Positions 7,325-60,700 of a DNA stretch of 64,000 nucleotides are shown in pieces (within the stretch, counting starts at the first letter, position 1; every line of letters starts with the position of its first letter). The translations under genes and the position numbers were made by a program. A model generated the notes under the pieces. It saw only the letters and a program-made list of their open reading frames with translations. It did not search any database and had not been told where the DNA came from. The stretch lies in the NCBI GenBank assembly GCA_026745465.1, contig JACYXH010000001.1:454001-518000 (forward strand), given 5' to 3'. Source of the DNA: Lota lota (Eukaryota > Chordata > Actinopteri > Gadiformes > Lotidae).

Positions 7325-10300
7325 CTGGAGGACAGAGCAGAGAGCGGAGAGAGAGCAGAGAGGAGAGCAGAGAGCAGAGAGGAGAGCAGAGAGGAGAGCA
7401 GAGAGCGGAGAGAGAGCAGAGAGGAGAGCAGAGAGCGGAGAGAGAGAGCAGAGAGCGGAGAGAGAGAGCAGAGAGGAGAGCAGAGAGCGGAGAGAGAGAG
7501 CAGAGAGGAGAGCAGAGAGGAGAGCAGAGAGCGGAAAGAGAGCGGAGAGGAGAGCAGAGAGGAGAGCAGAGAGCGGAGAGAGAGCAGAGAGGAGAAAGGA
7601 GAGAGGAGAGCGGAGAGAGAGCAGAGAGGAGAGCAGAGAGCGGAGAGAGAGAGCGGAGAGAGAGCAGAGAGCATAGAGCAGAGAGCAGAGAGCATAGAGC
7701 AGAAAGAGAGCAGAGAGGAGAGAGCAGAGAGGAGAGAGCAGAGGAAAGAGGAGAGAGAGGAGAGGAGAGAGCAGAGAGGAAAGGGTTCAGGGTTATGAAG
7801 AGCGATGAGAACCAGCTGGTTCTCTGTGGACCCTGTGTTAGTAAAACTAACTTCTGCTACTACAAGTCACTAATACACTCAAAGACACCTTACATAAGAC
7901 ATCAAACACATAAATAGCATGACACAAACACAAGCCGATATCAATAAATTGACATAAACCAAAAGGCAGATTGTAGTGATGAGGTTCTAACGGAAAGCTT
8001 GTTTCAAAGTGTCTCACCGATGCCGGGGATGATGTGGAAGTGCTCGTTGACTTCCTTGTCCACGGCCGTGGTGATGATGCGGACCCTGGGGAAGGCGTAC
8101 GCCACGGAGTGGACGCCCATCTCCGCCATGAGGAGGGACAGCAGGAAGATCCTCTCCTCTTGCACGTCGTGGTCCTGGGACACACGCAGAGACCAAGAAC
8201 AGCGGCACTTACTGCTCCGAAGACCATCGGTCTTGAAGTGGTGAGCGTTAAGTGGATCTGAGCGTCGTGTTCATAGGGGACAGGCAAATACAACAGGATC
8301 TCTGTGGGTCCTGGGCCAGAACGGGCTGTACTGTACGGACGTAGCTGTGCAGTACAGCAGGAGTGTGTCTGTGTGCTGCGTCTACACGTGTGTGCGTGTC
8401 TACGTCTGCATGTGTGTGTGTGTCTGCATGTAACTGCATGTGTGCGTCTGCATGTGTGTGTGTGCTTCTGCATGTGTTTATGTGTGTATGTGTGTGTGTG
8501 TGTGTGTGTCTGCGTCTACATGTGTGTGTGTGTGGGCTGCATGTGTGTGTGTGTGTGCGCGTGTTTATGTGTGTGTATGTGTGTCTGCATCTACATGTGT
8601 GTCTGTGTATGTGTGTGTGTGCATGCATGCATGCGCGTGTGTGTGTGTCTGCATGTGTGTGTGTGCGTGCTGGACCCACCAGCAGCACCCTGATGGCCAT
8701 GAGGGCGGCGGCTCCAGTGGACACGGTGCTGTCCATCAGGATGACGTAGTCCTCACTGATCTCCTTGGGAAGGCGCAGGTAGTGCAGCTGGACACACAAC
8801 ACATGGTCTAGGACTGATCCCGGATCAGGATAAACATTACCGATCCTGGATCAGGATAAACATTACCGAGCCTGGATCAGGTTAGACATTACCGATCCTG
8901 GATCAGGTTAAACATTTCCGATCCTGGATCAGGTTAAACATTACCGATCCTGGATCAGGTTAAACATTACCGATCCTGGATCAGGTTCAACATTACCGAT
9001 CCTGGATCAGGTTAAACATTACCGATCCTGGATCAGGTTAGACATTACCAATCCTGGATCAGGTTAAACATTACCGATCCTGGATCAGGTTAGACATTAC
9101 CAATCCTGGATCAGGTTAAACATAACCTCTACCCCCAAGATGGATCTGATGTACAGCCAGACGCTGTCGTCTCCATAAAACATTACTGATCCTGGATCAG
9201 GTTAAACATTACAGATCCTGGATCAGATTAAACACGACTGATCCTGGATCAGGTTCAACATTACTGACACTGGATCAAGTTAAACATTACCGATCCTGGA
9301 TCAGGTTAAACATTACTGACACTGGATCAAGTTAAACATCACTGATCCAAGATGAGGTTGAACATCAGATTCCTCTGCCCCCTTGTGGAGCAGAAGCACA
9401 TTAGAGAGGCTTGAAATAAACCCCTGTGTCATGGTACACACACACACACACCTCTGGCTCCCCGTGTCATGGTACACATACACACACACACACACCTCTG
9501 GCTCCCCCGTGTGGTGGTTCGTCTGTATGAGGATCTTCCCTAACCGGATGTCTTTGCACACGGCCATCAGAGCCTGCTCCATGGTCTCCCCTGCTCTCAG
9601 GATGGAGACGCCTGTGATCTGCACGCACACACACACACGCACACGCACACACACACACACACACACACACACACACACACACACACACACACACACACAC
9701 AACGAGAGGGACACCCACACACAACCAGACATGCACACGCACACACACACACACACACACACAACGAGAGGGACACCCACACACAACCAGACATGCACAC
9801 AAAAAAACACCCAGACATGCGCGCATACACACATACATACACAGTTATGCCTGGTTAATGTAGTCATTTTAGAAGTAAGTTAGTGCATACAAAAGTAATA
9901 CAAAAAACTACGAATAGGAAATAATAATATGTATTGTGTAGAACCAGAGTAATGGAGAAAAGATGGACTCATGGACACTTGTACACTAACGTATACTCAC
10001 TACATTTCACACACTTGAAAACAAGTGGAAAGTTGCTGTGACAGTTGGAGCCTGCGTTAAACAGCTCAGACTTCCTGGAGGAACCAGTTCCCCTCTTTAA
10101 AACCCCTCCCAGTTGGATGAACTGGTGTACAGACGCTGCTGTCTCTATAAAACCCCTCCCAGCTGGATGACCTGGTGTACAGACACTGCTGTCTCTATAA
10201 AACCCCTCCCAGCTGGATGATCTGGTGTACAGACAGACGCTGCTGTCTCTATAAAACCCCTCCCAGCTGGATGATCTGGTGTACAGACACACTGCTGTCT

Positions 10301-57730: not shown

Positions 57731-60700
57731 CTGCGGGAGACGGCAAAGATCAGAGCGCTGGGTGTGCTGAGCCGTCTCTGACAAGACACCAACACGGCAG
57801 ACAAAGCACATCCCTTCCTAGCAATCAACAGTGCTGCTTCCGTTTACTAGAAATCATTCATCCACTTCAGACAGAATTCATAGCCAAACCCCAATGGTTA
57901 TTTGTCCTTAAGAGGAAGAGAATCATCTACATTTTTACCAGTAATTCATTTTCATGTCGCTCCCTCTCTTTTCTGCCGACCTCAAGTTGAAACAGTTCAA
58001 ACTTCATCACCGCTATCACACTTCCTCTTTCTCCAGCTCTCAGCTACCTCGTCTACAGGAACCTTGTGTAGACCAGCTGTGGGCCCACGACCAGGTCTAG
58101 GTCAGTCTTCAGCTACCTGTGGTCTAGTCTTTAGGTACCTTGTGGAGAGCAGCTGTGGGCCCATGACCAGGTCTAGGTCAGTCTTCAGCTACCTGTGGTC
58201 TAGTCTTTAGGTACCTTGTGTAGACCAGCTGTGGGCCCATGACCAGGTCTAGGTCAGTCTTCAGCTACCTGTGGTCTAGTCTTTAGGTACCTTGTGGAGA
58301 GCAGCTGTGGGCCCATGACCAGGTCTAGGTCAGTCTTCAGCTACCTGTGGTCTAGTCTTTAGGTACCTTGTGTAGACCAGCTGTGGGCCCATGACCAGGT
58401 CTAGGTCAGTCTTCAGCTACCTGTGGTCTAGTCTTTAGGTACCTTGTGGAGAGCAGCTGTGGGCCCATGACCAGGTCTAGGTCAGTCTTCAGCTACCTGT
58501 GGTCTAGTCTTTAGGTACCTTGTGGAGAGCAGCTGTGGGCCCATGACCAGGTCTAGGTCAGTCTTCAGCTACCTGTGGTCTAGTCTTTAGGTACCTTGTG
58601 GAGAGCAGCTGTGGGCCCATGACCAGGTCTAGGTCAGTCTTCAGCTACCTGTGGTCTAGTCTTTAGGTACCTTGTGGAGAGCAGCCAGGGGCATCATGTC
58701 CAAATCTAGGTCAGTCTTCAGCTCCGTTTGCTTCATGCGCTTCCATGGAGCCCGCTTCTTATAATTTTTAAAGCTTCCCTGGAAGAAGTGAAGGAAAAGG
58801 GTTAAATGAACATCCATTAAAATACACTGTCTACAAGAGAAAGACGTCACGCCATGTCATTGTGGGCTCACAAGTATCAAATACCACCTGCATTTGTATG
58901 AGGGATCACGTCTGTGTGTGTGTGTGTTTACATGCAGATCAGCGGGCTGCTCAGTGGAGCGAGCAGAACAGATGGAGGAGGGATGGGGATGGAGAGGTGT
59001 GTGCTATGGAGAGGGTTATCTCTGAAGCTAATGATGGGCACCTAACATCTTTAGCAGATGTCCCTGAAAAGCAGGCCTTTAAGGTGTGTAACCTGACACA
59101 CACACACACACACACACACACACACACACACACACACACACACACACACACACACACACACACACACACACACACACACACACACACACACACACACACA
59201 CACACACACACACACACACACGTATGCACGCACACAAGCATACACACACACACACACACACACACACACACACACACACACACGCATGCACGCCCACACG
59301 CACAAACACACGCACGCACCAGGTTGCTGTCTGAGAAGTGGAGGAAGTAATTCTTCACAGCCTCTTGGTAGGTCTGGATGCTGGGGCCATGGTCTTCTGC
59401 ATCACTTTCTTCTTCATCGTTGCTGGCAGGGCCTTCCTCAGCATGTTTGTTGTTGTTGTTGTTCATCGACCGCCCTGAAGACTTTTCACCTTTCCCCTCC
59501 CCTTGGCTCTGTTCCTCTGCTGCATCATAGCGCACCATATCAGTGAAGTAGATTGGCTGCAAATGCATCCAAAAATGAAGAGAAAAAAATAATGCCACAT
59601 TTATTTCTATTTTTTAACTCTTACCTTTTCTTTCTTGGATAAGAGCGAGTCATTAGCGGTTTTCATGTAAAGAATATGAACGTGATGCTTTCTGTAATAT
59701 GATTCATTGTTATTGATCCATCAGGACAATACTAGACATTGTTACTAGTGGTTCAACCGCTACAAAAGGTAGCCCCGCCCACTCAGACCTTTTTGTCCGA
59801 ATCAGAACACCGTCACACACGTTAATGGCTATGAGCTGTTCATTTTCATACCGTCCTTTACGTCTCTATTTTCATGTTGCATAATAACTGATGATGCTTC
59901 TGTCGTGGGGAAGTTTGGTCCAAACAAACCAGACAAGGTGACAGAGGTAGAGGGGTTTTCTGGGGTACCTCCAGACAAGGTGACAGAGGTAGAGGGGTTT
60001 TCTGGGGTACCTCCAGACAAGGTGACAGAGGTAGAGGGGTTTTCTGGGGTACCTCCAGACAAGGTGACAGAGGTAGAGGGGTTTTCTGGGGTACCTCCAG
60101 ACAAGGTGACAGAGGTAGATGGTTTTCTGGGGTACCTCCAGACAAGGTGACAGAGGTAGAGGGGTTTTCTGGGGTACCTCCAGACAAGGTGACAGAGGTA
60201 GAGGGGTTTTCTGGGGTACCTCCAGACAAGGTGACAGAGGTAGAGGGGTTTTCTGGGGTACCTCCAGACAAGGTGACAGAGGTAGAGGGGTTTTCTGGGG
60301 TACCTCCAGACAAGGTGACAGAGGTAGAGGGGTTTTCTGGGGTACCTCCAGACAAGGTGACAGAGGTAGAGGGGTTTTCTGGGGTACCTCCAGACAAGGT
60401 GACAGAGGTAGAGGGGTTTTCTGGGGTACCTCCAGACAAGGTGACAGAGGTAGAGGGGTTTCTGGGGTACCTCCAGACAAGGTGACAGAGGTAGAGGGGT
60501 TTTCTGGGGTACCTCCAGACAAGGTGACAGAGGTAGATGGTTTTCTGGGGTACCTCCAGACAAGGTGACAGAGGTAGAGGGGTTTTCTGGGGTACCTCCA
60601 GACAAGGTGACAGAGGTAGAGGGGTTTTCTGGGGTACCTCCAGACAAGGTGACAGAGGTAGAGGGGTTTTCTGGGGTACCTCCAGACAAGGTGACAGAGG

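Follow-up and report, generated by a model that had tools for sequence, protein, structure and literature searches.

Five exons of three genes in a 64,000-nt stretch of the genome of the fish Lota lota (assembly GCA_026745465.1, contig JACYXH010000001.1, positions 454,001 to 518,000 of the forward strand; this whole stretch is called the window below) are followed by tandem repeats whose unit joins the end of the exon, its splice site, and a piece of the intron. Arrays of this design recur elsewhere in the same genome, at 5′ splice sites (donors) and at 3′ splice sites (acceptors), and donors are not preferred in an independent sample of exon-intron junctions. We think it probable that these minisatellites, which resemble the "mirage" repeats described in lancelets, result from ordinary local tandem duplication in a minisatellite-rich genome, where the first duplicated segment happened to lie across an exon edge. 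They are a real and recurrent feature of a known kind, found here in what is, as far as our searches show, a new lineage.

Junction-spanning arrays in the window

Tandem arrays in the window were taken from the rows of Tandem Repeats Finder (TRF), from direct reading, and from a scoring script. The script called a junction copy where a core of at least 5 exonic and at least 4 intronic nt recurred with at most 2 mismatches and an extended score of at least 16, no more than 800 nt from the junction; its search is ungapped, and diverged arrays escape it. Exon edges were set by reading frame; those of slc30a3 and uckl1 were also compared with the known proteins. The labels uckl1, slc30a3, and gtf3c2 are those of an initial annotation made from the same DNA, which we take to be correct in view of the known proteins. 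This annotation had described, in these genes, five arrays that combine the end of an exon, the GT donor, and intron sequence, and all five are present both by reading and by script.

Three of the arrays belong to uckl1, on the minus strand. The 3′ end and donor of exon 6 (15727-15916) head an array at 15191-15766 with a 67-nt unit of about 34 to 40 exonic nt followed by GTCAGTCACGC, the real junction at 15727 lying in the first unit. Exon 11 (11170-11232; donor at 11170) continues into an array at 10780-11202, whose 54-nt unit holds 33 exonic nt followed by 21 intronic nt that begin with GTAAGTC. At exon 12 (9496-9618; donor at 9496), the exon end and donor have been duplicated once (about 9443-9512, with a spacing of 44 nt): the exon end GGGGAGCCAGAG is followed by GTGTGT. 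This short pair of units, which has no TRF row of its own and was found by reading and by script, is partly a GT microsatellite. In gtf3c2, likewise on the minus strand, the last ~50 nt of the exon at 58671-58778 and its donor (58671) are part of an array at 58057-58723 with a 76-nt unit, in which the exonic portion is followed by GTACCTAAAGAC. The slc30a3 array (47822-48169, plus strand, 67-nt unit) is weak on the exon side. It includes the last ~7 nt of the exon at 47609-47828, with one mismatch (CTTCCGG versus CTTCCTG), and the donor at 47828 passes when 5 exonic nt are required (score 79.5) and fails when 8 are required (score 9).

Altogether, junction copies were found at 5 of the 22 donors placed in the window (three in uckl1, one each in slc30a3 and gtf3c2) and, with the same script, at none of the 24 placed acceptors. 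These totals combine a first set (5/20 donors, 0/21 acceptors) with a later one (0/2 and 0/3), and they leave aside uckl1 exons that lie upstream of 28.9 kb as well as the gtf3c2 exons past those placed. Random points within the three gene bodies land in a first unit at a rate of 2.6 to 3.6%, so that 0.66 donors would be expected where five were seen (P = 0.0006), an excess to be read with the fact that the window was chosen for showing the pattern. In all five cases the real junction lies in the first unit of the array, as had been pointed out in the initial annotation. This regularity is true and yet uninformative, because no unit of a donor-spanning array other than the first can be in contact with the exon; at acceptors the geometry is mirror-image.

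The surroundings are rich in repeats. TRF repeats with a period of at least 10 cover 27.6% of the bases of the window. In the sample described below, coverage is 21.8% where chaperonin and myosin genes were taken and 3.8% at the kinase loci. A repeat copy lies close to about 31% of randomly chosen points in the window, so that arrays will often meet exon edges; for non-exon points drawn at random from the sample, the figure is about 11%.

Donors and acceptors in an independent sample

To obtain junctions independently of the window, we sampled the same genome (575 Mb in 867 contigs) by Pfam searches for three families, kinases, chaperonins, and myosins, which gave 38 loci. Junctions were set on genomic DNA, with no transcripts, from the ends of the Pfam matches, the reading frame, splice-site scores, and reading; matches without a credible junction contributed none. 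A small exon finder added 18 exons, presumably of chaperonin or myosin genes judging from their translations; 5 of the 14 chaperonin gaps stayed unsolved. For the kinases, the 30 of 141 matches that had loci were examined, yielding 12 donors and 18 acceptors. For the chaperonins, 46 of the 47 matches in eight genes (the remaining one was dropped, as it fell beyond the fetched DNA) and the other six of the 53 matches yielded 59 donors and 61 acceptors, and for the myosins, 15 matches in three fetched regions, among those listed, yielded 16 of each, the finder exons being included in both families.

A first pass found copies at 2 of 69 donors and 4 of 77 acceptors, compared with 0.96 and 1.34 expected. 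In the full sample, 3 of 87 donors had junction copies where 1.63 would be expected from the rate at which non-exon points, chosen at random in the same loci, hit the end unit of an array (P = 0.23), and 5 of 95 acceptors had them. Donors and acceptors do not differ, either in the sample (Fisher P = 0.72) or with the window pooled (8/109 versus 5/119; P = 0.40), although the sample is small and a modest donor effect would be missed. The proposal of the initial annotation that 5′ splice junctions nucleate tandem duplication is not supported by this sample. Copies were more frequent at window donors (5/22) than at donors elsewhere (3/87; Fisher P = 0.008). The kinase loci contributed no positive among 12 donors and a single, weak one among 18 acceptors.

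Six of the eight sample positives are clear, and the recurrence of such arrays, which had also been claimed, is borne out by two donor cases beyond the window. In a chaperonin gene (locus L070, which we take to be cct3), the donor junction at 4075 of the gene strand is repeated as TACTGAGAAGGGCATCTCAG/GTACATG in an 85-nt unit (the slash marks the junction), and in a myosin gene (L073) the donor junction at 1325 is repeated as CTATCCTGGAAG/GTACCTAACC. The gene at L072, presumably cct2, has clear acceptor arrays at 8580, 6520, and 5230 of the gene strand, in which copies of the exon start (ACATGGCCCAGGGCAGCAT, for example) recur upstream after an AG; at 5230, most upstream copies have diverged. 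At L067 (presumably cct7), the acceptor junction at 3618 has one extra copy 75 nt upstream. In the acceptor arrays the real junction is the last unit. The two weak positives are L072:482, which is G-rich (score 17), and L026:1503 (score 16). The junctions L070:4075 and L072:5230 belong to finder exons.

The L072 gene, on contig C483, stands out in that this one gene has acceptor-spanning arrays at three junctions and a weak donor-spanning array at a fourth. A further array there begins right at the donor GAG/GTACCTCACT.

Copied splice sites and possible array homogenization

The initial annotation expected clusters of decoy donors, and the copies in the window arrays do retain sites resembling a donor. 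The donor 9-mer is identical to that of the real junction in 5 of 8 copies at uckl1 exon 6, in 6 of 8 at exon 11, in the one copy at exon 12, and in all seven gtf3c2 copies. In slc30a3, none of the four copies is identical; they still have the GT, but the donor site scores low. Across the window arrays, the distances from the copies to the real donor cover all values modulo 3, so that no frame is kept.

In three arrays the copies are closer to one another than to the unit that contains the exon: gtf3c2 (similarity 0.984 versus 0.862), slc30a3 (0.965 versus 0.895), and the myosin gene (0.956 versus 0.915). The pattern to be expected of a homogenizing array next to a constrained exon unit is thus seen in three of the five arrays that have at least two copies, and not in those at uckl1 exons 6 and 11.

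A search of 131 non-redundant array units for a nucleating motif returned GGTACC in four units where 0.57 would be expected (P = 0.003, uncorrected for the many 6-mers compared), and 19 other 6-mers outrank it. The arrays that bear GGTACC are those at 58057-58723 and 59929-61405 in the window and at L073:1402-1765 and L072:5135-5516. As a side observation, AG/GTACCT occurs at three donors in or beside arrays, in gtf3c2, at L073:1325, and at L072:6649.

Other repeats and open frames in the window

Two more copies of the uckl1 exon 12 unit (ACCATGACACGGGGAGCCAGAGG) lie at 4425-4505 on the minus strand, 5 kb from the exon in the same orientation and beside a long GT microsatellite. We considered whether this unit is a dispersed element: a genome search allowing up to 2 mismatches, in which very common words may be skipped, gave three places, all inside the window.

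A near miss was found in slc30a3, where an array at 51924-52257 (plus strand, 39-nt unit containing AGGTGAGC) begins 27 nt past the exon end at 51897. In its eight to nine copies, AGGTGAGC resembles a strong donor, and the weaker real donor lies just upstream of the array. It is not a junction array, since it does not derive from the exon, whose own donor, at 51897, is not within the array and has no copy. A longer exon ending in this array would break the frame, and comparison with the C-termini of known zinc transporters points to no insertion.

Open frames lie at two places in the neighborhood of the genes. By its motif, the one at 16926-17609 (plus strand), in a uckl1 intron, resembles a hAT-type transposase in its C-terminal part, and those at 49716-50151, which precede the slc30a3 exon at 51296, look like a retroelement integrase.

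How the arrays may have arisen

We suggest that a local tandem duplication would, by chance, span an exon edge, and that a duplication over a splice site would be tolerated, since the exon retains one intact junction at its border, in the first unit at a donor and in the last at an acceptor. The exon-adjacent unit would then be kept under coding constraint, while the remaining units, being intronic, would be free to expand and to homogenize. The decoy splice sites would be a by-product, and we saw no sign of function in them.

Several results weigh against a purely fortuitous encounter of arrays and exon edges. The window taken by itself has donor cases only (5/22 versus 0/24; Fisher P = 0.019), which also speaks in favor of nucleation by 5′ splice sites, be it through R-loops, repair, or GT slippage. 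We nevertheless regard such nucleation as improbable, given that in the sample copies were found at 3 of the 87 donors and at 5 of the 95 acceptors, with donors compatible with their matched null, that by reading a GT tract is found in just one of the five window units (that of uckl1 exon 12), and that AGGTRAG occurs, as a raw count, in one of the 131 units on the forward strand and in two on the reverse strand. The sampled acceptors, in turn, exceed their expectation of 1.85 (P = 0.040), as do both edges together (8/182 versus 3.48 expected; P = 0.026) and the first pass pooled with the window (11/192 versus 3.7; P = 0.0015, a figure to which the window that prompted the question contributes). 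Finally, the junction unit is not an outlier at uckl1 exons 6 (0.835 versus 0.815) and 11 (0.915 versus 0.863), on a measure that scores length differences as mismatches.

The excess at both edges would be expected if exon edges of either kind attracted or pinned the ends of arrays, for instance through selection against growth through exons or through transcription or chromatin that favors duplication. We consider this somewhat unlikely. Half of the eight positives come from the one gene at L072 (8 donors, 9 acceptors) and so are not independent, raising the score cut to 20 leaves six cases versus 2.95 expected (P = 0.08), and the null points were barred from the upstream copy while the junctions were not, giving the junctions a slight advantage. 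An approximately twofold excess at both kinds of exon edge is accordingly possible but weak. It is tempting to speculate further that donors and acceptors are preferred origins or anchors of minisatellites genome-wide, two- to threefold above intronic points, and that decoy arrays keep arising beside the real sites, where they would contribute to intron sliding or to the origin of new introns; we believe this to be unlikely. The many copies with an identical donor 9-mer might alternatively form functional clusters of alternative splice sites, and variable repeats located at the exon-intron boundaries of genes in human segmental duplications do alter splicing (PMC2812944). Here, the copy distances of all values modulo 3 keep no frame, and a function of this kind strikes us as highly improbable. 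An assembly artefact would be conceivable insofar as tandem arrays are hard to assemble, but the units are not identical in sequence, more than one contig carries arrays of this sort, and the contigs concerned reach 17.8 Mb, which makes an artefact extremely improbable. Taken together, chance duplication across exon edges in a minisatellite-rich genome appears to us the probable origin of the arrays.

Relation to known systems

The arrays extend the "mirage" repeats of lancelets to a tandem-repeat-rich fish genome, and our sample provides a first small count of how frequently each kind of splice site is hit. They may serve as natural experiments on how the spliceosome chooses among many identical sites and constitute potential raw material for intron gain. 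In human IFI6 (6-16), a minisatellite at the end of an exon reportedly repeats the splice donor (Turri, 1995); this case shares the repeated donor at an exon end and differs in being one gene with a short unit.

Mirages were named from amphioxus, where tandem repeats in the globin and Adh3 genes span boundaries between exons and introns. According to the globin paper, they can affect both 5′ and 3′ boundaries, carry AG/GT signals in many though not all repeats, leave regular splicing undisturbed as the data suggest, and have cluster boundaries outside homogenization (PMC3087553). Our arrays are alike in that the unit spans the boundary, both edges are hit (acceptors here only outside the window), and many units hold a splice signal; the exclusion of the boundary unit from homogenization may be shared in part, being seen in three of five arrays and not at uckl1 exons 6 and 11. 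They differ in occurring in a fish, in unrelated genes, and in being known from the DNA of one assembly. Among fish, the Atlantic cod genome is unusually dense in tandem repeats, many of them in or near genes, and is comparable in this richness, whereas units spanning splice junctions are not the subject of that report as far as its accessible part goes (PMC5241972). Polymorphic minisatellites described in sea bream lie in growth-hormone introns and, in what is accessible of the report, not across spliced junctions (PMC3045353). No report of junction-spanning minisatellites in fish was found in the open-licence PubMed Central listings.

Two further systems connect such repeats to new introns. 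Variable minisatellites located at exon-intron boundaries within human segmental duplications are tied to new introns and regarded as a source of altered splicing; the position of the repeats is the same, while the evidence there consists of differences in repeat number between recent paralogs with transcripts and here of arrays within single genes, seen in DNA alone (PMC2812944). In potato, a tandem duplication that reached across an intron-exon boundary carried the splice signals along, as in our arrays, and yielded a new intron; there, two copies led to a newly spliced intron, whereas in Lota lota many-copy arrays lie inside an existing one (PMC4974935).

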